This document shows positions 2,792 through 25,611 of a stretch of 25,611 bases of DNA, in pieces (within the stretch, counting starts at the first letter, position 1; every line of letters begins with the position of its first letter). Both the position numbers and the translations under genes were made by a program. The DNA comes from a virus. Location of the stretch: IMG/VR virus record IMGVR_UViG_3300021957_000268, positions 1 to 25,611 of that record, one strand, 5' to 3'. The notes beneath the pieces are model-generated. The model saw nothing but the letters and a program-made list of their open reading frames with translations, made no database searches and was not told the DNA's origin.

Positions 2792-5084
2792 TGTAGAACG
2801 GGATTTTTACGCAGGCAAAATCAGCTACGCTCCTAAAAAGAAAAGCGCTGTTGATGAGGGCTTTGGTTCTTTAATCCGCTCCATAGGGGCGGGTATGGAA
2901 GGCCGCTTCAAGCAAGAGCAGATGATGCGCCTTGAAGAAGAGGCAGACCGTAAGAAAAAGCGAGAGGAAGCTCTGGCAGAACAAAAAGCTGAAGAGAAAA
3001 AGAATGCACAACGGCTAAAGGCCGCAAAGTCTATCGTAAATGGCATAGGCTTAGATCCTAACAACACAAATTTTACTAACCACGTCTATGGTGAACTAGA
3101 AATTAACGGTGATGATGTGAATGGTACTCGTAATATGTACGAGAGCCTTATTAAAGATGGAAGGCTAGGTAAGGTAGCCGCTAATAGTTTGTACAAGAAT
3201 AGAGGCCCTAAGCCGCCTCAGATTGAAGCACAGATGGACGAGGCCTTTAAGGAATCTATGTCTGATCTGCAGGGGCCACGGGAACCAAAAGGTGTACGGA
3301 AAAGCCTTGCTAATACTGAAAGCCGTGGCACTGGAGATCTTACAGCTAAGAATGTTAACCCCGATGGTTTGATATTTGCGGGGCGGTATCAATTTGGTGA
3401 CGCTAGATTAGCGGATTATAATGCGGTTGCCGGTACTAATTATACCGCTGAAGGCTTGTTGAAAATGCCAGAAGAAGAGCAAGAGAAAATTCAGGAAAAA
3501 ATTGCGGATTGGCACTTTAGTGACATTTCAAAATTCATAAAATCAGAAGGCTTGGATAAGTATATTGGCACAGAGATTAATGGCGTTACGTTAACCGAAT
3601 CCAGCTTAGTGGCCGTAGCGCATCTGGGCGGTAAGAGCGGCCTAAAACAGTTCCTGCTTACGGATGGCAAGTACAATGAAAAAGACTCCAACGGAACTAG
3701 CCTAACAGACTACGCTAGAACACATGCTATGGCAGGGGGCCTACAGGAAACCAGTACCGCAGGGGATCGAACACAAGAAACATTTATTATCGAGCCGCCT
3801 AGACCAGATGCGGTTGATAAGGATGATCCCACTAGCTTTGAGGGAGTAGTAGTAGCAAGTTTGCTCAGGAGCCCAGAATTTATGTCGGCTTCACCAGAGA
3901 AGCAGGCAGAAATGGCTGCCGCCGCTAAAGCGTCTTTAAGCACGTCTTCAAAAGTAACTAAGTTGGACGCCGGTACGGTACGAGCATTATACGCAGACGC
4001 CCAGTTAAAAATAGCGAGCGGTGATCCAACACTTATTGCCGAGGGTGAGGCGTATATGACGTTAACTTACCCCAAACATAGAGAAGCCTTAATGACTTCA
4101 TTTAAGGAAACTTCAGAGGGGGATGAGGCAGTAGCCTTTATTAATGGAGTTATGGTTCCGGGCACAGTAGGGGCGGATCAATCCTTCATGCCAATGGGTA
4201 GTTCAGAAAGTATAATGCCGCAGACGGCGGATAACCCGAACGGTTATACGGGATTATCCTCGGTTGATATTGAGAAAATGGGGGCGCAGGCAGTGTCCCG
4301 AGCCTCTGCAGAGTTAGATGCCGGTTTTGATGGGGTGACCAATGCTATTGATGTTACTCAACAAGGCTATGAACTCGAAAAACTAGCCCGACAGCATCCT
4401 CAAATATTAACTGCCATTGGTGGTACGGCAGTTTCCAGTTTTGTTAGTGCTAAACGTGAGGTGGGGGCACTCTTAGACGTGATTGGTTTAGGGGCAGAAG
4501 GTGAAACTAGGTCTTCTGTGGAAGCTAAGGTGCAGGATTATTTGAATAGCGCCAATTACCAAGGGACAGAGAGTGAAGCTCAAGTTTATAAAGAGTTCTC
4601 CTCGGCTATGATCCGATACATATTTGCTGCCGGTAAAGCTTTAGGCCAGCAAGGTAACGGATTTTCAAATGCCGACTACAATAACATTAGAAATTCTATG
4701 TTAAGCGGGAATGGAATTGAAGACTTTGCCTCCGGTATGCAGAGATTCTCCAGAGAAAGAACCGAAGCTGCGAATAATCTGGCAATGGGAACACGTAATC
4801 GGACTTCGATCCAAGAACTTGGCCGCTACGGAAGAGATGTTGGTAATGATCTGATGACGGTGGAAGAACGTCTAAGCGATTTATCTGTGCAAAGTAACCG
4901 AGAGTTACCTGATTACATAGGGTGGATGAACGGGAATGTGTCATTCCCAAGTGCGGATGCAAATATAGAAACATTAGGCCGCTCCCCTGCAGATGGGGCT
5001 AAATGGGATGCGGCTCCATCTGGCACGAAGTTTAATGTGCTGCAAAGTGATGGGACAACTTACGTCACAAAGACGAAACCATAG
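2778..5084 (+). CDS. Virion-associated protein with lysozyme/transglycosylase-like domain, 768 aa
   Basis: The start ATG at 2778 has GAGGAG upstream. Residues 45-85 form a strongly charged predicted coiled coil rich in Lys/Glu. Residues about 170-320 resemble phage lysozyme-like or lytic transglycosylase domains: NTESRGTGD with candidate catalytic E181, then GRYQFGDARLADY, then a helical region with VAVAHLGGKSGL. The remainder is Ala/Ser/Glu-rich and helical, with no recognisable domain. In short-tailed phages, proteins of this kind sit inside the capsid and open the peptidoglycan when DNA is injected, like T7 gp16. That role is inferred from the domain and from the large internal-virion-type gene that follows. 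Confidence 0.75.
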   Translation: MGWRDVERDFYAGKISYAPKKKSAVDEGFGSLIRSIGAGMEGRFKQEQMMRLEEEADRKKKREEALAEQKAEEKKNAQRLKAAKSIVNGIGLDPNNTNFTNHVYGELEINGDDVNGTRNMYESLIKDGRLGKVAANSLYKNRGPKPPQIEAQMDEAFKESMSDLQGPREPKGVRKSLANTESRGTGDLTAKNVNPDGLIFAGRYQFGDARLADYNAVAGTNYTAEGLLKMPEEEQEKIQEKIADWHFSDISKFIKSEGLDKYIGTEINGVTLTESSLVAVAHLGGKSGLKQFLLTDGKYNEKDSNGTSLTDYARTHAMAGGLQETSTAGDRTQETFIIEPPRPDAVDKDDPTSFEGVVVASLLRSPEFMSASPEKQAEMAAAAKASLSTSSKVTKLDAGTVRALYADAQLKIASGDPTLIAEGEAYMTLTYPKHREALMTSFKETSEGDEAVAFINGVMVPGTVGADQSFMPMGSSESIMPQTADNPNGYTGLSSVDIEKMGAQAVSRASAELDAGFDGVTNAIDVTQQGYELEKLARQHPQILTAIGGTAVSSFVSAKREVGALLDVIGLGAEGETRSSVEAKVQDYLNSANYQGTESEAQVYKEFSSAMIRYIFAAGKALGQQGNGFSNADYNNIRNSMLSGNGIEDFASGMQRFSRERTEAANNLAMGTRNRTSIQELGRYGRDVGNDLMTVEERLSDLSVQSNRELPDYIGWMNGNVSFPSADANIETLGRSPADGAKWDAAPSGTKFNVLQSDGTTYVTKTKP

Positions 5085-5093
5085 GATATACTG

Positions 5094-8000
5094 ATGGCTG
5101 ATAAAATGCCGTGGGATGATCTCCCACAGGATACTAATCAAAAATTCCCGTGGGATGATCTCCCTGAAGACGAAGAGGAACAGGTAATGGTGGCGGAGGA
5201 GAAACCGTTCTCCGCCGACCAATATCTAAAGCCTATGGGATTTCTTGAGCGTATGGGAGTTACTGCATTCGATGAAGACAATGTAGTGTACCAACAGCTT
5301 AGTAACGACTCAGCTTTTGCCAACGCCGAGCCTAGTGTGCAGCGGCGTATCTACGATCAGGCTATTGACGCAGAAAACCAACGCATATTCCAAGAGCAGG
5401 GCGGAGACGCTACGCAAACTATTACCGACAGTGAGGGTAATAAGCAGACCTATATTGTTCCAACTCCAGAGATGCGGAACATAGATCGCTTTTTAGGTGA
5501 GCGTGGCGGTAAGATTTTTAGGAGCGGGGCTGGGGGTGTACTTCAAGTACCTAAAGCGGTTGCTCAAAGTGTAGAATTTGCTGCGGATGCTATCACCGGA
5601 AACGAAACCGATTACGTTAAAGAAAACTTTCCTACGCTACCGCCCGAAAGCAATCTCGATGCGGTAGGGCAAGAAGTTATATCCACTATGATTGGGGGTG
5701 CTTCTGGTCTGGGATTAGCCAACTCTCTGTCCAAAGCGTATAACATCACACCTAAAATGGCTAACTACGTGGCGAAGCAGTGGTCGAAGGTTAATCGTAA
5801 GGGAAGATCTCCCGCTGAATTGCGTGATGCGGCGTCTAATTTGGTTAATACATTTATTCTTGGTACGGGGGCAAACATAGGAGCTACTGCCACAGCACCA
5901 TCTGGCTCTGAAGCTCTGGTTGGCGATGATTTAGTAGAGGCCATAGGCCTCGAGGCTGATGACAACCCCAATCTATCTATATTCGCAGACAACGTAGCTT
6001 TTTCCGCTGGTCTGGGTGCTTTAGTGAAGCTGGGACGAGGAGCCAAATCCCTACTTGGAAAAGGTACTAAAGGCATAAAAGGCCTTGGCAGTAAGACTCG
6101 AGATGCTGAAGTAGGATTTATGGTAGTGTCCGAGCTAGACCCCAATCTAGCTGGTGCGCCTAATGAGGTGATTGCCGAAAGAGTTCGTATCCTCGGGGAA
6201 GTTCTCCGCAAAAATGCTAATTTTAATGCCGAGCTGTTGGGCAGTGAAGACGTTGCGTTAAGCACCACAACTGCTTTGCGTGAAGGCGTAAAAGAATACG
6301 TGGATCGGGCATATGCGTGGAGGAAGCCCCTAGACCCGGAAGGACACGAGCAGTTCTTAGAGAGACTAGCCGGGGATATGGTATCGAAGATAGCCGACTT
6401 GCGTAGTCGCCAATTACCTAAAGGGACCGCTGTAAGGCAGCAAGAGTCGGAGTTTTTAGAGGGGATGGACGCCGCACTTACTAAGACCTCAGATGATCTG
6501 GGTGGAGAGGTGGCCGTAGATCGAGCTGCCGAAGGTATAGCAAACCCAGTTTTAGGAGATGTATTAACTGCTAATCGAACTGTGGACGCAGCGAAGGGAC
6601 AAGCCGATACCGCAGCTAGTGAATTGTACAAAGCACAGTCACGGAACGAAATTACACAAAAGCTAATACAAGCGCAGAGAGGAAATCTCCTCGGATCGAA
6701 CAAGCAACAAACAGATAAGCTACGGCAACTTACCGGACCTCAGTTATACTCTGAGTGGTTAAGCTCCAAGACCATGTATGATGATGCGTTTGCCACGCTG
6801 CCTTATAAGCCTTTAGATGTACCTCGATTCACTGAATTGGTTAGGCAAGCCTCCACGGCTATTGACTCCATAGACGCAGTGACGTTAGCAAACCAAGCTG
6901 CATCCGTGCCGTTTAAAAAATTAATTGATATGGCAAAAGGCTATGCAAAAGATGGCAGTATAGAGGCCGTTGATAGCAGGCTTATGAATCAAGATCTGTC
7001 ATTTACAGATGTATATACGGAAATTAGGCCGCTTCTTGAGGCTCGTATAAAACAACTTGCCGCAGATAAAATGCCTTTTGATAAGATCAAAATGCTTAAA
7101 GATGGCATTGACGAAATGGCTGCCGAAATCGATGATGATCAGTTTAATCAAGCCATGGATCTGTGGAAACAACACCAAAACACTTGGCGTAGTACTGCCC
7201 CACTAAAAGACTATGACGCCGCTGCCCGGCAAGCTGTGCCAAGCATAGGCACCGGAATGGATGACGCCTATAATGCGGGTTTAGTAGCTCTTGACCAAGC
7301 CTTTGACTCAGGCAACCCATCGTATATGGAATCTTTTGTTAGAGCTATGCAGACTGCCGCCCCCGAAGGGCAGAATATCCCGGTAGAGTTATCGGAAGCT
7401 TGGGTTGGTCAGGCCATGAACGCCCTGACTAGACAAGGTGCTACTGGAGCCCGTGCGCCTGACAGGCAAATGATAGTAGATGCCGTACAACCCTATCTCA
7501 CACGCTTGGAAAATGTCAGCCCAGATGTGATAAGCCGATTTAATTCAGTTATCGAAGACCTTAATGTTCTGGAATCTGGATTAGGACAAGCAGATCAAGT
7601 ACTCGCTAAGGCGCAGGCGGTTGCGGCACAAGTAGTAGAGGAAGCTAAGGATAAAGCCGCTAGTAAATTTATTTACCAATTAGCAGGAAAAAACCCGCAA
7701 GTGGTAGGCAATGCTGATGATGCCTTTGGTAAAATATTTAACAACCCCCAAGCCCCTACATTCTTACCAGAAATCATGGAGGCGGTTAATGCCGCCGGGC
7801 CTTTGGCTCGAGAAGGTATACAAGCTGCGTTTCTAAGAAATCTACGTGAAGTGTTGCGGGTAAACAAAGTAGTGGGCGTAAGTGGAGCTAATCCCGCTGG
7901 TAATGTCCGATCTATTTCCCCGGCGCAGGTAGGCAATATTCTTAACGATCCTTCCAGCCCAGTATTGAAGTCCTTAAACATAGTCTTCTCGAATGACCCA

Positions 8001-8423
8001 GAGCGAGCCGCACAGGTAGTTCGTTTGTTAGAAATCCATGACATTGCTGCCGGTGGTCAATCAATGCGAGGCCAAGTATTTGGGTCAAACACAAGCTATG
8101 ACGCAGATCTAAAGAAGCTTATGGATCGTGTTGTAACACTGCGCTACGGTGTTCTTAACACGCAGGCCACCATCACTCGTAACTTATTAGACGCACTTAC
8201 AAAAGGTAAGCGCAAGGAAATTCAAGAAGCTGCCGAAGCTACAATTGGTGATATTGTGGCATACCCCGAAGAGTTTGCTCGTATCTTAGATCTTGTGGCT
8301 CGGGGCAATGAACCGGGGGCTCTGTCTATTATGACTGCAATATCAGCCCGGGGTGTTTTAGTGGGATTAGATGACGAAATAGATCCTATTGATCAGCAAA
8401 TGATGGATTTGGTACCGCAATAG
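5094..8423 (+). CDS. Large internal virion protein, 1109 aa
   Basis: The start at 5094 has AGGA about 8 bases upstream and lies 9 bases after the previous stop. The N-terminus carries two PWDDLP motifs (residues about 6-11 and 19-24), a kind of short repeat common at the start of large phage internal proteins. Residues about 195-330 hold Gly/Ala-rich helices that could insert in a membrane. The rest is long, helical and Ala/Gln-rich without a known catalytic motif. It is the last gene of the rightward block and is followed by terminators. Size, order and composition fit an internal or ejection protein of a short-tailed phage. I see no enzymatic signature. Confidence 0.75.
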   Translation: MADKMPWDDLPQDTNQKFPWDDLPEDEEEQVMVAEEKPFSADQYLKPMGFLERMGVTAFDEDNVVYQQLSNDSAFANAEPSVQRRIYDQAIDAENQRIFQEQGGDATQTITDSEGNKQTYIVPTPEMRNIDRFLGERGGKIFRSGAGGVLQVPKAVAQSVEFAADAITGNETDYVKENFPTLPPESNLDAVGQEVISTMIGGASGLGLANSLSKAYNITPKMANYVAKQWSKVNRKGRSPAELRDAASNLVNTFILGTGANIGATATAPSGSEALVGDDLVEAIGLEADDNPNLSIFADNVAFSAGLGALVKLGRGAKSLLGKGTKGIKGLGSKTRDAEVGFMVVSELDPNLAGAPNEVIAERVRILGEVLRKNANFNAELLGSEDVALSTTTALREGVKEYVDRAYAWRKPLDPEGHEQFLERLAGDMVSKIADLRSRQLPKGTAVRQQESEFLEGMDAALTKTSDDLGGEVAVDRAAEGIANPVLGDVLTANRTVDAAKGQADTAASELYKAQSRNEITQKLIQAQRGNLLGSNKQQTDKLRQLTGPQLYSEWLSSKTMYDDAFATLPYKPLDVPRFTELVRQASTAIDSIDAVTLANQAASVPFKKLIDMAKGYAKDGSIEAVDSRLMNQDLSFTDVYTEIRPLLEARIKQLAADKMPFDKIKMLKDGIDEMAAEIDDDQFNQAMDLWKQHQNTWRSTAPLKDYDAAARQAVPSIGTGMDDAYNAGLVALDQAFDSGNPSYMESFVRAMQTAAPEGQNIPVELSEAWVGQAMNALTRQGATGARAPDRQMIVDAVQPYLTRLENVSPDVISRFNSVIEDLNVLESGLGQADQVLAKAQAVAAQVVEEAKDKAASKFIYQLAGKNPQVVGNADDAFGKIFNNPQAPTFLPEIMEAVNAAGPLAREGIQAAFLRNLREVLRVNKVVGVSGANPAGNVRSISPAQVGNILNDPSSPVLKSLNIVFSNDPERAAQVVRLLEIHDIAAGGQSMRGQVFGSNTSYDADLKKLMDRVVTLRYGVLNTQATITRNLLDALTKGKRKEIQEAAEATIGDIVAYPEEFARILDLVARGNEPGALSIMTAISARGVLVGLDDEIDPIDQQMMDLVPQ
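5109..5164 (+). repeat. Exact 17-bp direct repeat encoding the PWDDLP motif
   Basis: CCGTGGGATGATCTCCC occurs at 5109-5125 and again at 5148-5164, a 39-base offset that keeps frame. It encodes the doubled PWDDLP motif at the N-terminus of the 1109-residue protein. Exact identity at the DNA level, including third codon positions, points to recent duplication. Confidence 0.85.
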
Positions 8424-8427
8424 AAAA

Positions 8428-8455
8428 CCCCCCGAACCGAAGTTCGAGGGGCTCA
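8428..8455 (-). terminator. Rho-independent terminator of the leftward replication operon
   Basis: Read on the minus strand, CCCCTCGAAC pairs with GTTCGGGGGG (one G-U) around a TTCG loop, and is followed by TTTT. The plus strand has no T-run, so the signal works leftward. It lies just beyond the 54-residue gene that ends the leftward operon and right after the stop of the rightward virion block. Confidence 0.85.
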
Positions 8456-8477
8456 ACTAACTAGAACGGTGACCAAA
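8454..8477 (+). promoter_or_regulatory. Orphan copy of the CAACTAACT leader
   Basis: CAACTAACT is followed by AGAACGGTGACCAAA, but no convincing gene starts after it on this strand. Its 18 bases AACTAGAACGGTGACCAA match exactly, in inverse orientation, the leader of the integrase gene at 20260-20277. It may be a relic of a lost gene or a recombination scar. Confidence 0.6.
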
Positions 8478-8502
8478 CCGCTCAACACAATATGTAGTGT
8501 TT

Positions 8503-8667
8503 TTAAGCCTCGGGGTCAATATCCTCAGAGGCTTTTTCTTTGATTTCATTGTCTTTTTCCACCATTACCACCGTATATACCGGCATCATTGGCAGGCTGA
8601 ATACGGGCAATGTGTAGGTCATTTGATAGGCTGGAGCAAACGCTCCGAAGGGCATAGTGAGGGTCAT
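8503..8667 (-). CDS. Small hypothetical protein, 54 aa
   Basis: An ATG at 8667 lies one base past the stop of the nuclease gene and has a strong AGGAG six bases upstream. The protein starts MTLTMPFGAFAPAYQMTYTL, a Met/Pro/Tyr-rich hydrophobic part, and ends with a charged acidic tail (EKDNEIKEKASEDIDPEA). It is the last gene of the leftward operon, just before a strong leftward terminator. The hydrophobic first half could contact a membrane but is not a clear transmembrane helix. No family is recognised. Confidence 0.75.
   Translation of the reverse strand: MTLTMPFGAFAPAYQMTYTLPVFSLPMMPVYTVVMVEKDNEIKEKASEDIDPEA
8505..8537 (+). terminator. Rightward terminator of the virion gene block
   Basis: AAGCCTC (8505-8511) pairs with GAGGCTT (8528-8534) around a 16-base loop, followed by a T-run. 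It lies inside the 3' end of the small leftward gene and would stop transcription arriving from the virion genes. Confidence 0.65.
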
Positions 8668-8668
8668 A

Positions 8669-9094
8669 TTACACTCCTAAAAAGCTGAAGAATTTAACCT
8701 GATCAACAGGTATGTCGAAGAATAATTCGCCTGTGGGTACCCGGTTATTGGGTACCTTTTTTCTTGGGGCGGATTTGAGGTATTGTCTGCTCACCACAGC
8801 CCCTCGATGGAGGCTGCTATTGAACACAATAAAGACGGTGGGCCGGTCTAAAAACTTGGCCTTCCGTATTGGTATATGTAAGGTTTCAAAGGGAAATTTC
8901 AACCCATACCACCCGGTTTTAACCTCGGGTTCACAGAAGAAATTACGCCCTTTGCCTTTAACTACGAGGTCTACATCATACTCATTTTCATGATCGTAGC
9001 ACTCGTAGCCATTAGCTTTCCAAAACCTCTTGGCTGTTTGTCTGGCCGGTTGGTCGTACCGGGCATGGTCCTCTGAGCTGAACCCTTTAATCAT
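8669..9094 (-). CDS. PD-(D/E)XK superfamily nuclease, 141 aa
   Basis: A compact nuclease-like protein. The core reads YDVDLVV, then FFCEPEVKTGW, giving D42, E57 and K59 in the order D-x14-E-x-K that binds metal in restriction-type nucleases. I place the start at the ATG at 9094 because it overlaps the reductase stop in a TGATG arrangement; a longer frame would need a TTG at 9133. It is co-transcribed with the ribonucleotide reductase. A role in host DNA breakdown or recombination is plausible, but the substrate cannot be read from sequence. Confidence 0.7.
   Translation of the reverse strand: MIKGFSSEDHARYDQPARQTAKRFWKANGYECYDHENEYDVDLVVKGKGRNFFCEPEVKTGWYGLKFPFETLHIPIRKAKFLDRPTVFIVFNSSLHRGAVVSRQYLKSAPRKKVPNNRVPTGELFFDIPVDQVKFFSFLGV
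8736..8762 (+). terminator. Second rightward terminator, inside the nuclease gene
   Basis: GGTACCC (8736-8742) pairs perfectly with GGGTACC (8750-8756) around a 7-base loop and is followed by six T. It lies in the opposite-strand coding sequence of the nuclease, 300 bases past the last virion gene, and is a good back-up stop for rightward read-through. Confidence 0.7.
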
Positions 9095-10776
9095 CAGACG
9101 CCGCAAGACCCGCCGGTTCCAGATATTTCGCAAATATCATGGGTTTCGATATGCTCTTCGAACTCTTCTCCCAGCTTCTCTACTGCTTCTGAATAGGGCA
9201 CAGATGTGAGTGGCTGACCGCCTCGGCTGCCGTCAGGATAACAAGTGAAGCCTCTTAGACGGGGTGCATACTTAGCCAGCGTAAGGGCAAAGTCAGCTAC
9301 CGTATCCTCATTGTTAAGCTTAGATCCCCAAGCCGGTAGGTTGATGGTTGAAGAGATTGACATATCCACGTAGTCCTGAACATCCGCTTGGAAAGCCATA
9401 CGCCGCTCATAATCGGACGCTAGGTCGATAGCGCTTTCAATACTATTTGGGTCGGCACCTTGGTCGATTAAGACTTGGGCAGCATTATCCACCACGTACT
9501 GGTATACCCATCGTGTATTTCCCTTGAGGTACCTACGCTTAAAAGCAACAGCAAAAATAGGCTCAACGCCAGTGCTGGTGCCAGCCAGAATACCAATGGA
9601 CCCGGTTGGGGCGATGGCTCTGTTTGCCACTGGTCTAGATATTGAGAACTCGTCTGCGGTTTCTCGAGATACTTTATCACTGACGCCTTTGTATACCTGC
9701 AGCCACGAATGCAGCTCTGGAGTAACTTCATATTTTGATCCCCTCTGGATTAACCACTCGTGCATACCCATCAGGCCAAGGCCTAGACGGCGGTTCTTCT
9801 CTCTAGTTTCGTAGACCTTTTCATAGGGCAGACGAGCTTTTAAGGTGCCGCAAATAAGGAACTTGGTTCCTAGTGCGACCACTTCCGCCATCTCGTCTAT
9901 GTCTTCGATGCGGCCCATGTTGATCGAGCCTAAGTTACACACGTCACTGTCATCCGCTGAAGTAACTTCAGTGCAGGCATTACGCAGTGTGTCATTTTCC
10001 TTATCAAAGAAGTTGAATGAGAAACCCGGCTCGGCTGACTGCATTGCCTGACGCACGTTCTTCACAAATACGTCACCCACATCCCCGGTCTTGTAATAGT
10101 TCAACAGCCACTCTGTGTCGTAGTTCACAGAGATGTTTGTCATGTCCAACGGGGCAGGGAAGTTAAAGTCTTCTTGTTTGATATCCCACAAGGTCTTTCC
10201 AGTGCTTCCCACGGGCATGCTGCCCCAATCTTTAGCACCTAGAAACTCATGTATGTCACCATGCTTCCAGTTCAGGCTGGCATAGATAGCACTCCTACGA
10301 GAGCCCCCTTGCATAACCCGGCGACCAATCTCGTTGATCATATTCATCTTAGGGATAGGCCCACTAGCTTGGCCCCCGGTCTTGGAGATGGGAGAACCAC
10401 TAGCCCGGTACACTGAATAATCTATGCCGATTCCGCCACCGGTCATCAAAGCGCTTTCAGACTTCCACGATAGGTTAGCCCAATCTTCACGACTATCTTC
10501 CTCGGCCTTTAGGAGATAGCAATTGTTAAAGAATTTATTAGGACGCCCAGCGTAATAAAGATATCTGCCGCCGGGGATAAATTTCATCTCACGCACATAT
10601 TGCGTTAATTGATCTTGGTCTTCTTGAGACAAAAGATCTCCACACACATCATCAATCAAAGTCTTGGCTAATGCGTCCCAAGTTTCCGCACCCTCGTGCC
10701 GATACTTATGATTAAATATATCTTCACTAAACTTAGATCTAAATTCTGGATTAAGGTTTGATTTAAAGCTGCTCAT
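9094..10776 (-). CDS. nrdJ: Adenosylcobalamin-dependent (class II) ribonucleotide reductase
   Basis: Converts ribonucleotides to deoxyribonucleotides for phage DNA synthesis. The reductase signatures are clear: NNCYLL (C86), N266-x-C268-x-E270 for the radical-site cysteine with its Asn and Glu partners, C280 in CNLGSINM, and PTGSIG at 390-395. A C-terminal cysteine pair, C549 and C558, would be the redox shuttle. No ATP-cone domain is seen at the N-terminus, and no small radical subunit gene lies nearby, which favours the B12-dependent class II over class I. At 560 residues it is short for the family, as often in phages. The start overlaps the mazG stop (ATGA), and GGGAGA precedes it. Class assignment is inference from the missing NrdB partner. 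Confidence 0.85.
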   Translation of the reverse strand: MSSFKSNLNPEFRSKFSEDIFNHKYRHEGAETWDALAKTLIDDVCGDLLSQEDQDQLTQYVREMKFIPGGRYLYYAGRPNKFFNNCYLLKAEEDSREDWANLSWKSESALMTGGGIGIDYSVYRASGSPISKTGGQASGPIPKMNMINEIGRRVMQGGSRRSAIYASLNWKHGDIHEFLGAKDWGSMPVGSTGKTLWDIKQEDFNFPAPLDMTNISVNYDTEWLLNYYKTGDVGDVFVKNVRQAMQSAEPGFSFNFFDKENDTLRNACTEVTSADDSDVCNLGSINMGRIEDIDEMAEVVALGTKFLICGTLKARLPYEKVYETREKNRRLGLGLMGMHEWLIQRGSKYEVTPELHSWLQVYKGVSDKVSRETADEFSISRPVANRAIAPTGSIGILAGTSTGVEPIFAVAFKRRYLKGNTRWVYQYVVDNAAQVLIDQGADPNSIESAIDLASDYERRMAFQADVQDYVDMSISSTINLPAWGSKLNNEDTVADFALTLAKYAPRLRGFTCYPDGSRGGQPLTSVPYSEAVEKLGEEFEEHIETHDICEISGTGGSCGV

Positions 10777-11099
10777 CTATTGTCTCCCGAGCCCTGAATT
10801 ACTCCACGGGCCATTCTGCTATTAAGCTTGTTGAGGTTTTTTTGGGCCACAGAGGCCATATCTACGCCGAGGTCAGAACACAGAGAGGCTAAGTACCACA
10901 GCACATCTCCTGCCTCGTCAGCTATCTGCTCTCGGAGTTCTGGGGTAAAATTACCCTTATGGTCCCGCAGGACTTTCTTGACTTTACCCGCCACTTCACC
11001 GGCTTCACTGAGCAGGCCTAGAGCAGGATAAACTATATAATCTGCATCATCGTATATGGCAGTTTTTACGGCTTGTGTTTGGTAGTCTGAAAAATTCAT
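10773..11099 (-). CDS. mazG: MazG-like nucleotide pyrophosphohydrolase, 108 aa
   Basis: Short all-helical MazG/dUTPase-like fold. It shows the metal-binding pattern ExxE (E32, E35 in SEAGEVAG) and ExxD (E62, D65 in DEAGDVLWYLA). Such enzymes hydrolyse NTPs or dNTPs to monophosphates and are common in marine phages, where they are thought to adjust nucleotide pools or alarmones. It overlaps the reductase and the upstream DUF3310-like gene by four bases each, a tightly coupled nucleotide-metabolism set. Confidence 0.85.
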   Translation of the reverse strand: MNFSDYQTQAVKTAIYDDADYIVYPALGLLSEAGEVAGKVKKVLRDHKGNFTPELREQIADEAGDVLWYLASLCSDLGVDMASVAQKNLNKLNSRMARGVIQGSGDNR

Positions 11100-11377
11100 A
11101 GCGGCTCACCTCTCTGATGCATTTCGATTAAGTCCTGAATGAAGAACTTCATTTTGTTGAGGTCGTAGGCTACGTCTGTGCCCTGCTTTTCACCGAGCCG
11201 ATAACAGGCTTTGAATATATCGCCCCGGCTCTTGCTCATGCCCTTAAAGCTGATCAGATGACGCAGCTCAGTAGCGTGGGTGGGTAAGACATAATACGAA
11301 GTAGAAAGCCCATCAGACTCAATTTTTATGCGGTCTTTCGGATTACAATCCATTTTATTTAGATCCCATTTAGCCAT
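11096..11377 (-). CDS. DUF3310-like phage protein, 93 aa
   Basis: The C-terminal half (GDIFKACYRLGEKQ, then DLNKMKFFIQDLIE) resembles the DUF3310 family. In that family a helix with a G-x-I-x-K-type motif is followed by a Gly-Lys turn and an Asp-Leu-x-Lys helix. These small proteins are frequent in phage nucleotide-metabolism operons and are sometimes called nucleotide-kinase-like, without firm biochemical proof. Four-base overlap with mazG supports co-expression. The assignment is by motif pattern only. Confidence 0.6.
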   Translation of the reverse strand: MAKWDLNKMDCNPKDRIKIESDGLSTSYYVLPTHATELRHLISFKGMSKSRGDIFKACYRLGEKQGTDVAYDLNKMKFFIQDLIEMHQRGEPL

Positions 11378-20833: not shown

Positions 20834-20902
20834 CATGTAGATGAAAAAAATCGATATCGACCAGATCTTGAATTTTATTTGATTGGCTGGCTTGCCATCT
20901 AA

Positions 20903-20934
20903 CTGCCGGATTGTTAAGTGATCAACACCGGCAG
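20903..20934 (+). promoter_or_regulatory. Stable hairpin ahead of the first GC-rich gene
   Basis: CTGCCGG (20903-20909) pairs perfectly with CCGGCAG (20928-20934), and inner TGTT pairs with AACA. It is placed about where hammerhead ribozymes sit before later genes, but it has no hammerhead core. It may be a 5'-UTR stabiliser or a terminator without a T-run. Confidence 0.5.
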
Positions 20935-20944
20935 CCGCCGGGTT

Positions 20945-20969
20945 CAACTAACTAAAAAGGATGACCAAA
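20945..20969 (+). promoter_or_regulatory. CAACTAACT leader, first GC-rich gene
   Basis: CAACTAACT (20945-20953) is followed by AAAAAGGATGACCAAA and the ATG at 20970. AAGGA sits 8-9 bases before that ATG, which is why I reject the upstream ATG at 20961. Confidence 0.65.
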
Positions 20970-21257
20970 ATGACAGACGAAAATTTACCGGATGAAATGG
21001 CGCTGCTTCTGATCCATGCAGCCACCCGGGGGGATGGGTTCTGCTATCCCTTCCCGATCATCTCGAGGCCGCAGGCCGGGGATCGAAAACGGCGCACCGC
21101 CGCCGAGCTGGACAAGGCCGCCGAGGGGTTGCTGCGCCGGGGATATTTGAAGCGCACCAAAACCAATCTTCAAAAGCATATCTGGCGGAGGGTTCGGGGC
21201 ATCGGTGATGTGACGCTCGAGGTCACCCCGGCTGGTCGGGCTGCTATAAATTGGTGA
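20970..21257 (+). CDS. Small winged-helix-like protein, 95 aa
   Basis: The ordering helix (AAELDKAAEGLLRRGYLKR) followed by a strand-rich end (DVTLEVTPAGRAAINW) looks like a winged-helix DNA-binding domain: a recognition-helix region then LEVTPAGR, as in many MarR-like or small phage regulators. The N-terminal third is not recognised. This is the first gene of the GC-rich part and has its own leader. A regulatory role is plausible from the fold but not shown. GC content is clearly higher than in the integrase region 700 bases away. Confidence 0.65.
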   Translation: MTDENLPDEMALLLIHAATRGDGFCYPFPIISRPQAGDRKRRTAAELDKAAEGLLRRGYLKRTKTNLQKHIWRRVRGIGDVTLEVTPAGRAAINW

Positions 21258-21326
21258 TCGTATACCAGCTCTTAGGCTTTGCCCTATTCTGGGGCACAAT
21301 ATTCTACTGGATCTTTAGCTAAGGAT

Positions 21327-21346
21327 GGCCGCCCCCCGGGGCGGTC
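21327..21346 (+). terminator. GC hairpin, possible weak terminator
   Basis: CCGCCC pairs with GGGCGG around CCCG and the following bases (TCTCATTATTT) are only moderately T-rich. Its 14-base core CGCCCCCCGGGGCG is identical to stem III of the hammerhead at 22044-22057, but GAAA and CTGANGA are absent here. Confidence 0.45.
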
Positions 21347-21368
21347 TCATTATTTGGAACATATCACC

Positions 21369-21397
21369 AGAGCGCTTGAGAGCGCCGCTGAGTGCTG
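21369..21397 (+). repeat. Module-flanking direct repeat, left copy
   Basis: This 29-base segment (core TTGAGAGCGCCGCTGAGTGC) matches 24 of 29 bases with 25573-25601. Both copies sit just past a hairpin and upstream of where an operon begins or should begin, so it may be a promoter-proximal regulatory element or a recombination boundary. Confidence 0.6.
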
Positions 21398-21547
21398 TTT
21401 GGGTTTTCGCATAGCAGGATAAGGCTGCACCCCCTTCCCCCAATTATCGCCATTTAACTATCAAATAAGACGGTGCTTTTAACGGGCTTTACTAAGTGGC
21501 CTGAACTATGTTAAGGGAAGGCACGGGCGGTGTGCCCGGATGAAACT

Positions 21548-21567
21548 TTAACTAACTGGAGACGACC
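21548..21567 (+). promoter_or_regulatory. TTAACTAACTGGAG leader
   Basis: TTAACTAACTGGAG is followed by ACGACC and the ATG at 21568; GGAG is the Shine-Dalgarno. No ribozyme precedes this copy. Confidence 0.65.
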
Positions 21568-21783
21568 ATGACCAATCAAACCGAATTCAAAGCCCTCGAG
21601 ATCCGCCGTTTAAAAGAGGGAGACTATTTCCGCCGGAAGCCCGAGGCGCAAAAGGAATTCATAAGAAATCATTATAACCGCAAGGACGCATTCGGCCCGG
21701 CAAATTATTGTTGCACGGCTGCGGATGATATTGGTCGGGAGATCTTTTTGAAACCCGCCACCGTTGTTTATGTGGAGGTGTGA
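21568..21783 (+). CDS. Conserved phage/plasmid-type small protein, 71 aa
   Basis: The pattern LKEGDYFRRKPEAQKEFIR, then HYNRKD, then YCCTAADDIGREIFLKPATV recalls a small family seen on phages and plasmids. In that family a 'G-x-F-F-K-R' start is followed by a 'Y-x-C-x-D-x-x-x-R-E-x-F-L-K' end. Their function is unknown to me. It looks like a small beta-rich domain. The gene is followed three bases later by the next ATG, so both are on one mRNA. Confidence 0.7.
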   Translation: MTNQTEFKALEIRRLKEGDYFRRKPEAQKEFIRNHYNRKDAFGPANYCCTAADDIGREIFLKPATVVYVEV

Positions 21784-21786
21784 TCG

Positions 21787-22035
21787 ATGACATCCGAGCA
21801 AATCAAAACCGCCACAGATGCAACTCTGATGGAATGGATGTGCAACGCATTAAACACAACCGCCTGTATCGGCCATACGAAGGGCCAAATGAATGAAACC
21901 TTGGCCGCTAAATACAGGGCCGAGCTGATCGAGCGGGGGCACAATCTCCGGAGCTTTGAATTCTTTGGCGGTGATCGAGCTTACCGGGAACGGGTGGCCG
22001 AGCTGGGCACCTATAACGGGCCCGGATCTTTTTAA
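21787..22035 (+). CDS. Hypothetical protein, 82 aa
   Basis: Starts at 21787, three bases after the previous stop, with GGAGGTG shortly before. The sequence includes LMEWMCNALNTTACIGHTKG and YRAELIERGHNLRSFEFFGGDR, mostly helical with mixed charge. No domain is recognised. Its stop codon lies one base before the hammerhead ribozyme, so its mRNA 3' end would be set by self-cleavage at 22059. Confidence 0.7.
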   Translation: MTSEQIKTATDATLMEWMCNALNTTACIGHTKGQMNETLAAKYRAELIERGHNLRSFEFFGGDRAYRERVAELGTYNGPGSF

Positions 22036-22091
22036 ATTCGAAACGCCCCCCGGGGCGTCTGGATACCTTGGGCAAGGTCCACTGATGAGAA
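22036..22091 (+). ncRNA. Type II hammerhead ribozyme 1
   Basis: Order is GAAA, stem III, cleavage base, stem I, CTGATGA, i.e. the type II permutation. GAAA is at 22040-22043. Stem III is 22043-22048 with 22053-22058, loop CCCG. The cleavage base is C22059. Stem I is TGG/CCA plus ACCTT/AAGGT with a two-base bulge (A22063, T22064) and loop GGGC. CTGATGA is at 22082-22088. Stem II is short: GAA (22089-22091) with TTC (22037-22039), perhaps extended by GCCC (22093-22096) with GGGC (22018-22021). Cutting after 22059 would separate the 82-residue and coiled-coil genes. Confidence 0.9.
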
Positions 22092-22097
22092 CGCCCA

Positions 22098-22120
22098 CAA
22101 CTAACTGGAGACTGACCAAA
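22098..22120 (+). promoter_or_regulatory. CAACTAACTGGAG leader after ribozyme 1
   Basis: CAACTAACTGGAG at 22098-22110 is followed by ACTGACCAAA and the ATG at 22121. After self-cleavage it would lie about 40 bases from the new 5' end. Confidence 0.65.
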
Positions 22121-23047
22121 ATGAACATGCAACTGACTGACCACACCGCCGCATTGAAAGCCACCAAAACCGCCCCGGTGTGGGTGAGCAAGAAAACCAG
22201 CCGGGCTTGGGCCTGCGGGGCCGAGATGGCCGAGCTGCGAGCCGCCGGGGCTTCGATCCAAAAACTATCTGAGCAGTATGGGGTGAGCTGGCCCACCGTT
22301 CGCAAGATCGTTGCCGCTAACGCACCCTACACAACCGACCGGCCCGGTCTGGATAAAGATAGCCACCGCCTCGAGCTGCAAAACTTAGCGCTGCAAGGTG
22401 AGTTAAAGGTTGAGCGCAAGCGCAGCCAAAAGGCCCGGGACGCCTTCCGGGATCTTCGCAGAAAATCAATGGACCGCCGCCGCCAAAACTTAGAGCTGCA
22501 TACAGGCCTTCGTGAGGAACTGACCGAGGCCAAGGCTTGGGGCCATAAATGGAAGGCCGAGCATGCCGACATCGTTAAGCGACTGGTCGCCGAGCAGTCT
22601 TGTCTGATCGATCAAAAGCAAATGACCAAATCAGCCCGGGAGGCTTATGAGAACGCCAAGAAATCGGTCGGGGAATTGTCCGACAAATTATTCGGCACCA
22701 AGGGTGCGCTCGAGACCGCTACAAAAATTGTTGAGGATCACGAGGCCCAGATTAACGAGCTGCGGGACACCCTCGAGCTGGCTAATGCGGCCACCAATGC
22801 TCTGCAGCAAAAACTGGATCACGCCGAGACCGAGGTGACCAATGCCCGGATCGCCGAGCAGGCTGCACATGATCGCCTGAACGATCCGAGCTGGGCTAAC
22901 CGGTGGTCGAAAGAGGCGCATGACGAATTCGAGCGCCGCAAGCAAACCGAGCTGGATCTGATGGCCGCCGAGGCGCAGCTCGAGCGCATGGCCGAGAAAT
23001 TGGCCGAGTGCAGAAACCGGGGGTTTTTTGCCCGACTGTTTGGCTAA
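22121..23047 (+). CDS. Helix-turn-helix plus long coiled-coil protein, 308 aa
   Basis: I start at 22121 because it follows the repeated leader; the frame is open further upstream, but that part overlaps the 82-residue gene and the ribozyme. Residues about 33-66 (MAELRAAGASIQKLSEQYGV, then SWPTVRKIVA) form a resolvase-like helix-turn-helix. Residues about 75-295 are a long charged coiled coil rich in Glu, Lys, Arg and Ala. The C-terminus ends GFFARLFG, a short aromatic tail found on many proteins that dock to partners or membranes. A DNA-tethering, segregation or chromatin-bridging role is conceivable. The family is not recognised. Ribozymes lie on both sides. Confidence 0.75.
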   Translation: MNMQLTDHTAALKATKTAPVWVSKKTSRAWACGAEMAELRAAGASIQKLSEQYGVSWPTVRKIVAANAPYTTDRPGLDKDSHRLELQNLALQGELKVERKRSQKARDAFRDLRRKSMDRRRQNLELHTGLREELTEAKAWGHKWKAEHADIVKRLVAEQSCLIDQKQMTKSAREAYENAKKSVGELSDKLFGTKGALETATKIVEDHEAQINELRDTLELANAATNALQQKLDHAETEVTNARIAEQAAHDRLNDPSWANRWSKEAHDEFERRKQTELDLMAAEAQLERMAEKLAECRNRGFFARLFG

Positions 23048-23119
23048 ATCGAAACCGGGGCACACCGCCCCGGTCGCACCGGGAATGACCGCCCGGGCCT
23101 GACGAGAATGTCAGCCAAA
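23039..23119 (+). ncRNA. Type II hammerhead ribozyme 2
   Basis: GAAA is at 23051-23054. Stem III is eight perfect pairs (23054-23061 with 23067-23074), loop ACACC. Cleavage base is C23075. Stem I is GC, bulged A23078, CCGGG paired with CCCGG and GC, loop AATGACCG. CTGACGA is at 23099-23105. Stem II has GA (23106-23107) with TC (23049-23050), an internal loop, and seven pairs TTTGGCT (23039-23045) with AGCCAAA (23113-23119). The 5' strand of stem II is the end of the coiled-coil gene, and its stop codon TAA starts the internal loop. Stem, loop and core agree in every conserved position. Confidence 0.95.
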
Positions 23120-23120
23120 T

Positions 23121-23142
23121 CAACTAACTGGAGAATACCAAA
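23121..23142 (+). promoter_or_regulatory. CAACTAACTGGAG leader after ribozyme 2
   Basis: CAACTAACTGGAG at 23121-23133 is followed by AATACCAAA and the ATG at 23143. It begins one base after the distal stem II of the ribozyme. Confidence 0.65.
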
Positions 23143-24153
23143 ATGAACACTTTTAATTCAATCGACCGCCTGCCTGCCGAGGTTATTAGCTTGGCCCAAA
23201 CGATCAGCGCCAAGGCCGCCGCCGAGCGCCAAGTGATTGATCCGCTGGCCTTGTCCACCAAGCTAGATTTCAACGTGATCCAGAAAGGCCTCGGCTACCT
23301 CGAGGACCGGGAGCCTATGCCGACCGAGCTGGCTGTGAGCCGGGAGGGTTCAGCCGGTAACACTTGGACGTTGCAGCGCCTGCCCAAAACGATCGGCAGC
23401 CTGTTGCTGCGAGAGGATACCGGCGAGCCCTTGTTTGTGGTTGGGCAGCGGTTTGCCATTGCTCAGAATTCAGACATCCATGCGGCCTTTATTGAGGGGC
23501 TCGGGGCCGGGTTGCCTACCACCGCTTTTGATGACGGGGTGCGCTCGGCTCAGGTGACCTCGTTTGAAGGCCGTTTCTCCCGGGTGGATCTGACCTTTAG
23601 CAATATGGCTTACGAGCTTAAACAGCTCTCGGGCAAGCCCACCATGCTGAACTTCAAAGCAGGCTGGAGCAATTACCACGGCGGGGGCTCGATCAAGGTG
23701 TGGGCTGGGGCCGAGGATCTTGTCTGCCTCAACGGTATGATGGGGGATGTCATGACGTCGGACGCATTCCGCCACACTCAGGCCTTCACCCCCGAGCATC
23801 TGGGCGGGTTTATCCGGGCGCAGGCGGAGATGTTTCTGGAGCGTTGCCGAGTGTGGCAACGGTGGGCCATGGCCGAGATCTCCCCGGAGGAAGCCGAGCA
23901 GGTTCTAAAGGACACCGGCAACAGCCCCAAGCACACCAAGGCGCTGATGGAACAGCTCGACCGGGAGGCCGCCGCAAGAGGGATGACAGTCTGGTCCGTA
24001 TACAGCGCCCTGACCCAATGGGGCAGCCATGCCACTGATCAGTTCAAGGTACGCAACACCGGGGCCGATAATGTGGCCGCAGTGCTGGCTGATCGGGAGA
24101 CCGCCGTGACCCGTATTGTGAGCAGCGAGGCATGGCAGCGCTTCGCCGCCTAA
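23143..24153 (+). CDS. DUF932-family phage/plasmid protein, 336 aa
   Basis: Matches the DUF932 (phage/plasmid-like) family. Around residues 175-205 the YHGGGSIKVWAGAEDLVCLN segment corresponds to the family's conserved strand block ending in C-x-N-G. TVWSVYSALTQWGSH near residue 285 corresponds to its helical 'Y-x-A-x-T-x-x-x-x-H' motif. Members occur on plasmids, prophages and conjugative elements. Their biochemical role is unsettled, though association with replication or single-stranded DNA has been suggested. The length fits the family. Hammerhead ribozymes lie directly before the leader and directly after the stop codon. Confidence 0.85.
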   Translation: MNTFNSIDRLPAEVISLAQTISAKAAAERQVIDPLALSTKLDFNVIQKGLGYLEDREPMPTELAVSREGSAGNTWTLQRLPKTIGSLLLREDTGEPLFVVGQRFAIAQNSDIHAAFIEGLGAGLPTTAFDDGVRSAQVTSFEGRFSRVDLTFSNMAYELKQLSGKPTMLNFKAGWSNYHGGGSIKVWAGAEDLVCLNGMMGDVMTSDAFRHTQAFTPEHLGGFIRAQAEMFLERCRVWQRWAMAEISPEEAEQVLKDTGNSPKHTKALMEQLDREAAARGMTVWSVYSALTQWGSHATDQFKVRNTGADNVAAVLADRETAVTRIVSSEAWQRFAA

Positions 24154-24217
24154 GTCGAAACCGGGGCCCGTGCCCCGGTCGTGACCGGCCTGACCCCCGG
24201 CACCTGATGAGACAGGT
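24148..24217 (+). ncRNA. Type II hammerhead ribozyme 3
   Basis: GAAA is at 24157-24160. Stem III is eight perfect pairs (24160-24167 with 24172-24179), loop CCGT. Cleavage base is C24180. Stem I is GTG, bulged A24184, CCGG paired with CCGG and CAC, loop CCTGACCC. CTGATGA is at 24204-24210. Stem II is GAC (24211-24213) with GTC (24154-24156), an AA bulge, then AGG (24214-24216) with CCT (24149-24151) and a possible wobble. The stop codon TAA of the DUF932 gene supplies the bulge and one pair. Loop I shares TGACC with ribozyme 2, while the stem sequences differ by compensating changes. Confidence 0.95.
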
Positions 24218-24233
24218 TTGACCATCAGCAAAT

Positions 24234-24256
24234 CAACTAACTTAGGAGGCCCAAAA
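24234..24256 (+). promoter_or_regulatory. CAACTAACTTAGGAG leader after ribozyme 3
   Basis: CAACTAACTTAGGAG at 24234-24248 is followed by GCCCAAAA and the ATG at 24257. Here the Shine-Dalgarno is extended to TAGGAGG. Confidence 0.65.
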
Positions 24257-24586
24257 ATGGCTTTGAAAATTACCGCAAAACAAAAGCAAAAACTGCTCGA
24301 GAACGATCAAGAATATTATCTGGACCACCGCCCGGTGGTAAAGATCTTTAACCCGTGCGGTGCCGCCACTTGGCTGCTCACCAGCATGGACCCGCATGGG
24401 GTGGCCTATGGCCTCTGTGATCTCGGCATGGGCTCGCCTGAGCTGGGCAGCGTCTCGGTTCACGAGCTGGCCGAGGTGAAGGGGCCGCTCGGCCTCGGGC
24501 TCGAGGTGGACCGGTTCTTTACCGCCGATAAAACCATTTCAGAATATGCCGCAGCCGCTCGGGCTGCTGGCTCAATTGCAGCGTAG
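24257..24586 (+). CDS. DUF2958-family protein, 109 aa
   Basis: The family marks are clear: HRPVVKIFNPCGAATWLLTS, then VAYGLCDLGMGSPELGSV, then ELAEVKGPLGLGLEVDRFF. DUF2958 proteins are small single-domain proteins carried by plasmids, conjugative elements and phages, often close to DUF932 and other accessory genes. No activity is established that I know of. The start is chosen at 24257 after the strong TAGGAGG; an earlier in-frame codon at 24218 lies inside the ribozyme region. The product is compact, with the usual length for the family. Confidence 0.85.
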   Translation: MALKITAKQKQKLLENDQEYYLDHRPVVKIFNPCGAATWLLTSMDPHGVAYGLCDLGMGSPELGSVSVHELAEVKGPLGLGLEVDRFFTADKTISEYAAAARAAGSIAA

Positions 24587-24602
24587 GGGGGGGGATAATA
24601 TC

Positions 24603-25097
24603 ATGGGGTTAGATATGTATTTATCAGGCGAAAAGTATTACGTCCCAGACTACGACACGCTGCGGAAACAATACGAGCAGGGGGAAGATCGCCCGAGCCC
24701 GGAAGAGGTCAAAAAGATGGGTAGGCCGCTCGACGCTGATGGTGAGCACGTTAGCAGCACCCAGTACGAGCTAGGCTATTGGCGCAAGTTCGCACCGCTG
24801 CACGAATATATCGTGAAGACCTTTTCCGATGGTGTGGACAAATGCCAGCGGATAGATCTCACCGGGGAAGATCTGGAAAAGATCGCCGGGGCCCTGACTG
24901 AGGACGCCTTGCCATCCAATGAGGATTGCGGCGGGTTCTTTTTTGGGTCTGCTAAATTATGGGACGATCACCGGGCCGAGGCTGTAGAGCATGCGGAAAA
25001 GATCCGGGCAGCCGCCCGGTGGCTCGAGGCTGCACCAAAGCACCCCAGCGGATCGCATGCACAATGGCGCAGCGTTCATTATCAGGCGAGCTGGTAA
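24603..25097 (+). CDS. Conserved phage protein of the MGLDMYL type, 164 aa
   Basis: The start MGLDMYLSGEKYY, the middle ELGYWRKFAPLHEYIV and the end GGFFFGSAKLWDDH fit a widespread phage family. In it GLDMY is followed by a 'GYWRKAN-x-IH' block and a 'GFFFG' block near the C-terminus. Its function is unknown to me. The ATG at 24603 has a run of G (GTAGGGGGGGG) upstream as ribosome binding site. The gap from the DUF2958 stop is only 16 bases and has no ribozyme, so this gene shares an mRNA with DUF2958. Confidence 0.8.
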   Translation: MGLDMYLSGEKYYVPDYDTLRKQYEQGEDRPSPEEVKKMGRPLDADGEHVSSTQYELGYWRKFAPLHEYIVKTFSDGVDKCQRIDLTGEDLEKIAGALTEDALPSNEDCGGFFFGSAKLWDDHRAEAVEHAEKIRAAARWLEAAPKHPSGSHAQWRSVHYQASW

Positions 25098-25098
25098 G

Positions 25099-25260
25099 AT
25101 GTTTGATGTAGTGAAAGCAGCTCGCAGCATGACCGCCGAATTGATCGAGGCGCAGCGCCGCATTGATCTGGGCGAACCCCTGAACACGACCGCAGCGGAT
25201 CTAGGCCTGACGCCCTCAGAGCTGCGTGAAATGCTCGAAGCAATGGGCCCGGTAGCATGA
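25099..25260 (+). CDS. Small helix-turn-helix-like protein, 53 aa
   Basis: The ATG at 25099 is one base after the previous stop, and its end overlaps the next start by four bases (ATGA). The protein reads MFDVVKAARSMTAELIEAQR, then a likely helix-turn-helix (TAADLGLTPSELREMLEAMG). It may bind DNA or simply be a small helical protein. No family is recognised. Tight coupling to both neighbours supports it as real. Confidence 0.65.
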   Translation: MFDVVKAARSMTAELIEAQRRIDLGEPLNTTAADLGLTPSELREMLEAMGPVA

Positions 25261-25472
25261 CCCGGCAAGTGTTGACCAAGGCGCAGCGCCGGGCCGTTTA
25301 TGCGGTGTGGCAGCGGTGGCATGAAAGCAACGGCAGCCGCCCCGGTTTGACCGGGTGCTACCGTGATTTTCGCCGGGATGTGAAAAGCACCTTTGGCATG
25401 GATGATGCGGTGGTGGTTCAGGTTCCCGGCTTGTGGCTGGCTATCGAGGCGGACGGCTACACGCATAGTTGA
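25257..25472 (+). CDS. Hypothetical basic protein, 71 aa
   Basis: Starts at 25257 within an ATGA overlap. It is rich in Arg and Trp (LTKAQRRAVYAVWQRWHESN, then GCYRDFRRDVKSTFGMDDAV) and ends VPGLWLAIEADGYTHS. This resembles small phage or plasmid accessory proteins of unknown role. It is the last gene of the GC-rich operon and is followed by a terminator. Confidence 0.7.
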   Translation: MTRQVLTKAQRRAVYAVWQRWHESNGSRPGLTGCYRDFRRDVKSTFGMDDAVVVQVPGLWLAIEADGYTHS

Positions 25473-25498
25473 TCCTTATTGTGACAATGTCCTATAGG

Positions 25499-25526
25499 GG
25501 CCCGGTTTATCGCCGGGCCTTTTTAT
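25499..25526 (+). terminator. Rho-independent terminator of the ribozyme operon
   Basis: GGCCCGG (25499-25505) pairs perfectly with CCGGGCC (25513-25519) around a 7-base loop and is followed by TTTTTATT. It ends the rightward operon that starts at 21568. Confidence 0.85.
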
Positions 25527-25572
25527 TGCCCGGAATATGCCCCGGTTACGGCATGGCCGGGAGTGATGGCTG

Positions 25573-25601
25573 AGAGCCGTTGAGAGCCTCGCTGAGTGCC
25601 G
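25573..25601 (+). repeat. Module-flanking direct repeat, right copy
   Basis: Core TTGAGAGCCTCGCTGAGTGC (25580-25599) matches the left copy at 18 of 20 bases. It lies just past the operon terminator, at the edge of the window, where another operon may begin. Confidence 0.6.
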
Positions 25602-25611
25602 GGAAGGATTG

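Follow-up and report, generated by a model that had tools for sequence, protein, structure and literature searches.

Do the long gaps of a phage operon carry RNA elements that could cut its transcript between genes, and is their position tied to the translation of those genes? The question is raised by the 25.6-kb virus record IMGVR_UViG_3300021957_000268 of IMG/VR, analyzed here over its whole length (positions 1 to 25,611; hereafter the window), at the right end of which an operon of small genes runs on the + strand (∼21568–25472). A sequence-only reading of this DNA had proposed three type II hammerhead ribozymes in consecutive intergenic gaps, and these are borne out by the family model, by covariation, by a pseudoknot and by conservation in related phages. 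One type II hammerhead is found in each of the three long gaps, 22036–22120, 23048–23142 and 24154–24256, which precede a gene for a probable coiled-coil protein (the coil gene), a DUF932 gene and a DUF2958 gene, respectively. We consider it likely that the three elements are active, pseudoknot-stabilized ribozymes, which would cut the polycistronic mRNA into units without any protein.

Type II hammerheads in the three long gaps

At the window sites the core elements CUGANGA, GAAA and H17 are present in the permuted order GAAA, stem III, C17, stem I, CUGANGA. Stem III is closed by the pair A15.1–U16.1, stems I and III are loop-closed, and stem II is open and comprises 2–3 base pairs (bp) only. 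Hammerhead 1 (22036–22099; like the other two on the + strand) has a UUC/GAA stem II, GAAA at 22040, stem III at 22043–22058, a predicted cut after C22059, stem I at 22060–22081 and CUGAUGA at 22082–22088. The corresponding parts of hammerhead 2 (23047–23120) are GAAA at 23051, stem III at 23054–23074, a predicted cut after C23075, stem I with an A bulge at 23076–23098 and CUGACGA at 23099–23105. Hammerhead 3 (24153–24221) combines a GUC/GAC stem II with GAAA at 24157, stem III at 24160–24179, a predicted cut after C24180, stem I at 24181–24203 and CUGAUGA at 24204–24210. The cuts after 22059, 23075 and 24180 had been predicted by the sequence-only reading, and our independent parse places C17 at the same positions; the bulge that it saw after two or three pairs of stem I at all three sites follows 4–5 pairs at site 1.

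The window sites have the pseudoknot that is common, though not universal, in type II hammerheads and joins loop I to the 3′ tail. It pairs UGGGC (22069–22073) with GCCCA (22093–22097) in hammerhead 1 (5 pairs) and UGAC (23086–23089) with GUCA (23110–23113) in hammerhead 2 (4 pairs), and is weakest in hammerhead 3 (3 Watson–Crick pairs, CCU/AGG or ACC/GGU). The loop–loop contact through TGACC suggested earlier was therefore near the mark but wrong, the contact being this Watson–Crick pseudoknot of loop I with the 3′ tail.

The best Rfam family at all three sites is RF02276, with 29.9, 36.5 and 29.1 bits at sites 1–3 and E-values at the three sites of 7e-5, 0.0037 and 0.0062 in a search against all families. 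A further weak RF02276 match on the minus strand (24368–24439, 14.2 bits) was discarded, as it falls within the DUF2958 gene and does not satisfy the descriptor given below, and weak Rfam matches to sR48, SNORD43, chrB-b, SorX and anti-hemB in the window are at chance level. A strict descriptor (GAAA, a stem III with 4 bp or more and an A–U closing pair, H17, stem I, CUGANGA and stem II) yielded exactly three matches on both strands of the window, the three sites, while six core-permuted descriptors yielded 0; in 200 random sequences, each 25.6 kb long and matched in first-order composition, the strict descriptor found 5 hits in total. A covariance model built from nine clade members, including window sites 2 and 3, scored these two sites at 65.7 and 66.8 bits, respectively; site 1, which took no part in building the model, reached 33.6 bits (for 1 Mb, E 5e-6).

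Conservation in related phages and covariation of stems and pseudoknot

By their DUF932 proteins, the nearest named relatives of the window phage are the Roseobacter phages CRP-3 (41.5% identity) and CRP-212 (40.4%), and the window phage probably infects Roseobacter-type bacteria as well. Both relatives have two hammerheads, in the gaps DUF932–coil and coil–DUF2958, scoring 37.2 and 32.9 bits in CRP-3 and 38.4 and 32.1 bits in CRP-212 with RF02276. Five IMG/VR contigs with the same operon carry two or three hammerheads between the same genes; one of them (L005) has the full set of three, each at the orthologous position (40.4, 35.5 and 29.8 bits), and between it and the window a double change in stem I of site 1 converts A–U to C–G with the pair kept. 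The invariant core is retained in 19 of 19 aligned clade members, whose stems differ. By contrast, 54 other viral loci with DUF2958 (0.41 Mb) contained 0 ribozymes, so that DUF2958 alone is no predictor. Published work assigns CRP-3 to subgroup III and reports that it integrates (PMC9038755, PMC6918029); the window encodes a tyrosine integrase.

All viral contigs were scanned with a free-gap core pattern (GTCGAAAC, 8–32, GTC, 15–40, CTGATGAGAC), which gave at least 120 matching stretches. Stems I and III were both formed in 129 of 145 distinct matches, taken without selection on stems, compared with a mean of 2.2 with shuffled gaps. The nine-member covariance model gave 169 matches in 1.03 Mb. 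These were aligned on the model, as MAFFT misplaced short stem III copies. This gave 148 distinct phage hammerheads, in which 98.1% of the cells in stems are paired. Both sides of a pair had changed in 623 cells (178.6 when shuffled), with 15 of 17 pairs affected, and stem covariation was 0.613 (0.127 shuffled); although the alignment was made to fit the structure, slid controls stay at ∼0.1 or lower. Stem covariation is strong in this set. The loop I–3′ tail pseudoknot, which is absent from the model, covaries as well (0.336 versus 0.142), in columns picked from the same alignment. A swap of tails provides an independent test: own loop–tail combinations formed runs of 3.82 bp, and those with swapped tails 2.44 bp (standard deviation of means 0.066).

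Several points weigh against active ribozymes in the window. Rfam at its gathering threshold (37 bits for RF02276) returned no match there, all three copies lying below; of the check with the Rfam type II model proposed by the sequence-only reading, the family assignment stands and a score above the cut-off was not reached. This cut-off is a curation threshold and not a biological feature, the low scores are probably due to divergent stems, loops and pseudoknot letters, and hammerheads of several relatives exceed it (37.2–40.4 bits); since Rfam at the cut-off gave nothing, score alone would have missed the window ribozymes. Pseudoknot-free minimum-energy folds favour other structures by 5–11 kcal/mol at all three sites; plain folding is uninformative here because it cannot model the pseudoknot, and is still the main computational caution. 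The pseudoknot of site 3 has only 3 pairs. No hammerheads were found in the examined relatives HMO-2011, CRP-1, CRP-235 and CRP-738, and the ribozymes are thus not essential in the HMO-2011-type phage group. Finally, mRNA stability is a benefit of cutting that we infer.

The sub-threshold scores and competing folds would also fit inactive relics or chance look-alikes, that is, GC-rich intergenic hairpins that match a hammerhead core. We give this next to no credence: besides the 0 matches of the core-permuted controls in the window, two core-mutant descriptors together matched 4 times in 1.24 Mb of viral loci and the true core 203 times (a comparison that is not unbiased, as the core pattern recruited most of these loci), the invariant core is accompanied by compensatory stem changes, and seven related phages or contigs have kept the elements. 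It is also very unlikely that the hairpins are there to be cut by ribonuclease (RNase) III or RNase E, or to terminate transcription in part, self-cleavage being incidental. Stem III does form a strong GC hairpin right behind each stop codon, a position also occupied by the RNase III hairpins of phage T7, but no T run follows stem III at any of the three sites, and selection acts on every base of the catalytic core as well as the pseudoknot, features dispensable for such sites.

Stop codons and the proposed cutting of the operon transcript

The hammerheads stand on the sense strand between the stop codon of one gene and the start codon of the next. In the window, GAAA is preceded by TAA at 4 nucleotides (nt) at site 1 and by UAA at 3 nt at sites 2 and 3. 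Over 194 distinct hammerheads, an upstream stop codon, counted for open reading frames of at least 40 codons, lies 2–8 nt ahead of GAAA in 150, where random shifts of 60–400 nt gave a mean of 5.4 and a maximum of 12. Downstream, 165 of the 194 have a Shine–Dalgarno sequence and start codon, at a median of 28 nt behind CUGANGA. The words 'stop codon' do not occur in the main text of PMC3088659, the 2011 description of prophage hammerheads by Perreault et al., and no later paper on phage type II hammerheads was found among the open-licence papers searched; the stop rule may be noted elsewhere.

This placement would allow a translation-gated switch, in which ribosomes on the upstream gene hold an otherwise active ribozyme unfolded, and low translation leads to a cut that uncouples the genes or lets the mRNA decay. 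We regard such a switch as possible, though a good deal less probable than cleavage itself. In its favour, stem II borders on the stop codon or shares bases with it, and in 44 of the 194 it is exactly 2 nt from GAAA, 43 of these being UAG with the last base, G, inside stem II; the GTC/GAC search pattern itself, however, favours UAG at distance 2. Viral ribozymes found without selection for the GTC stem obey the rule too (14 of 26, against 0.8 by the null), as do those on genome contigs of bacteria and archaea (55 of 110, against 3.0). Against the switch, compact phage genomes put any intergenic element near stop codons. Slightly better odds, though still tentative ones, may be given to a standard phage cassette of stop codon, type II hammerhead and ribosome-binding site, which would occur in up to at least eight repeats between early genes and, with the stop in or abutting stem II, would let termination gate self-cleavage gene by gene.

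For the active ribozymes proposed here, we envisage the following course. As the polymerase passes each ribozyme, the RNA would fold and cut itself after C17, protein-free. The transcript of the operon would thereby yield four units: the two small open reading frames at its start; the coil gene (22060–23075, 1016 nt); the DUF932 gene (23076–24180, 1105 nt); and a four-gene message of DUF2958 and three small genes. The upstream product of each cut would carry the GC-rich stem III hairpin and a 2′,3′-cyclic phosphate at its 3′ end, and the downstream product would begin with a 5′-OH and the stem I hairpin, 61–76 nt ahead of the start codon (the 5′ untranslated region of the coil gene would be 61 nt). 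Both ends would be expected to resist exonucleases and 5′-end-dependent decay, and each unit could thereby have a separate stability, similar to what cutting by RNase III achieves for the early mRNA of T7. Because stem II begins at the upstream stop codon or a few nt from it, cutting may be coupled to termination: a ribosome on that stop would cover GAAA, so that cutting would wait for, or compete with, translation termination.

The genes themselves are as follows, all on the + strand. The first small open reading frame (21568–21783, 71 aa, no family) has no ribozyme ahead of it; its leader holds a GC hairpin (GGGCACACCGCCC-like, ∼21520–21540), in the place taken by ribozyme stem I at the later genes, and then the ribosome-binding site AACTAACTGGAGA. 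The second (21787–22035, 82 aa, no family) ends with the TAA at 22033–22035. The coil gene (22121–23047) encodes 308 aa with a helix-turn-helix-like N-terminal stretch followed by the probable coiled coil, and is succeeded by the DUF932 gene (23143–24153, 336 aa; PF06067, E 1.6e-6) and the DUF2958 gene (24257–24586, 109 aa; PF11171, E 1.2e-35). Three more small genes (24603–25097, 25099–25260 and 25257–25472) are tightly packed and lack ribozymes. A ribozyme between every gene and the next, as first supposed, does not describe this operon: the three long gaps are filled, and no ribozyme is present in the short junctions 21783/21787, 24586/24603, 25097/25099 and 25260/25257. Just past the last gene, GGGGCCCGG...CCGGGCC and a T run (25498–25528) read by eye as a probable operon end; the terminator scan did not call this element, and sigma-70 and terminator scans of the operon gave no signal above chance. 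A leader motif composed of AACTAACT and then GGAGA or TAGGAGG is repeated ahead of the first gene and behind every ribozyme of the window (21548–21567, 22100–22120, 23122–23142 and 24226–24256); its counterparts in CRP-3 and CRP-212 are CTAACTTGGAG or TCTAACTGGAG. The G+C content is 57% in 20900–25611, the end with the ribozyme operon, and 46% in 1–20900; from this higher value, the ribozyme operon module may differ in origin from the rest of the contig.

Gene order varies in the clade, being coil–DUF932–DUF2958 in the window and 3300046167_000321 and DUF932–coil–DUF2958 in CRP-3, CRP-212 and others. Such rearrangement raises the idea that the ribozymes are retained mainly as cassette boundaries, where modules of gene, ribozyme and ribosome-binding site recombine and early genes are shuffled. 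A 95%-identical ribozyme does stand behind DUF932 in CRP-3 and 3300046167_000321 with a different next gene, similar copies precede different genes, and one locus (L096) has two copies, at 689–757 and 1523–1591, ∼830 nt apart, identical in alignment and with the same score, which suggests that this element was recently copied. We nevertheless hold this explanation to be unlikely, because mean identity is 0.63 among ribozymes sharing the upstream gene, 0.58 among those sharing the downstream gene and 0.61 among those sharing neither, which gives no clear linkage rule (linkage to the upstream gene is weakly suggested), and because the conserved catalytic core and pseudoknot are left unexplained.

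Arrays elsewhere and comparison with known systems

Longer arrays of the same kind occur in other viral contigs. In IMGVR_UViG_3300008255_000242, eight type II hammerheads lie between successive small genes within 3.2 kb (8123–11326); several TAG stops there run directly into the ribozyme (TAGTCGAAAC), and AATGGAGA stands ahead of the next start. IMGVR_UViG_3300000217_000001 has eight clear hammerheads (3616–6708) and, in addition, a weak match of 21.2 bits and a partial one, the array spanning ∼3.5 kb. The view that a serial array is unusual cannot be maintained: the pattern scan found such ribozymes in more than 100 phage contigs, many in arrays of 2–8, and clustered prophage hammerheads, a triple array among them, were described in 2011 (PMC3088659). 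More than 100 assembly contigs of bacteria, and some of archaea, also match the pattern, among them contigs of Gastranaerophilales, Brevibacillus and a Lokiarchaeota bin; several have pairs and triplets of hammerheads, and prophage and host contigs are counted together here. The proteins encoded downstream of 146 ribozymes are mostly unknown. Among the Pfam and PHROGs matches listed, recognised families include DUF932, AAA ATPases, helicases, ArdA, methyltransferases, RusA and GroES, DUF932 being the commonest (6 of 146, the window's own included); no structural family is in the Pfam list for the 146 proteins.

Phage hammerhead arrays as such have been known since 2011 (PMC3088659), and what hammerheads do in bacteria and phages is among the open questions named in PMC6155905. 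Ribozymes go unmentioned in the HMO-2011-type phage papers PMC9038755 and PMC6918029, and our literature search found no paper joining these phages with ribozymes. As far as the literature was searched, it is new that HMO-2011-type marine phages have these ribozymes, that arrays can count eight of them, and that their placement follows a stop-codon rule; together with conservation in cultured phages, they are useful additions. Conserved arrays in the cultured CRP-3 and CRP-212 (strain FZCC0040) make function directly testable, as 5′-OH ends can be mapped in infected cells, and the tight stop placement offers a specific, checkable idea of ribosome-coupled, protein-free RNA processing in an abundant group of ocean phages.

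The window copies share with Rfam RF02276 (Hammerhead_II) the core, the order of parts, the short stem II and the loop I–3′ tail pseudoknot, and differ in scoring 29–36.5 bits, below its cut-off of 37. In phage T7, RNase III cuts the early polycistronic mRNA between genes, leaving a 3′ hairpin on each message. The likeness to the window lies in cuts between early phage genes and one 3′ hairpin per message; there, however, a host protein cuts, whereas here the RNA would cut itself and leave a 5′-OH and a 2′,3′-cyclic phosphate; the window is not a member of that system. In the haloviruses HF1 and HF2, a variant hammerhead precedes an early helicase gene (PMC3088659). It is likewise a phage hammerhead close upstream of an early gene's start codon, but a single ribozyme with a variant core.

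Perreault et al. described prophage hammerhead clusters that flank single genes or short blocks and proposed that they process single-gene mRNAs (PMC3088659). For one of them, the triple array that surrounds ardA in Agrobacterium tumefaciens, cleavage was demonstrated both in vitro and in Escherichia coli; further prophage arrays occur in Azorhizobium caulinodans and Clostridium scindens, and the loop I–3′ tail pseudoknot of type II was already described there (PMC3088659). With at least two sense-strand hammerheads flanking single genes or short blocks, the window belongs with these clusters, which it resembles in having several hammerheads around single phage genes or short blocks, of type II with the pseudoknot. 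It differs from them in its setting, HMO-2011-type marine phages and the genes for DUF932, DUF2958 and the coiled-coil protein, in the stop-codon placement quantified here, and in relatives of the same kind that reach eight hammerheads in a row.

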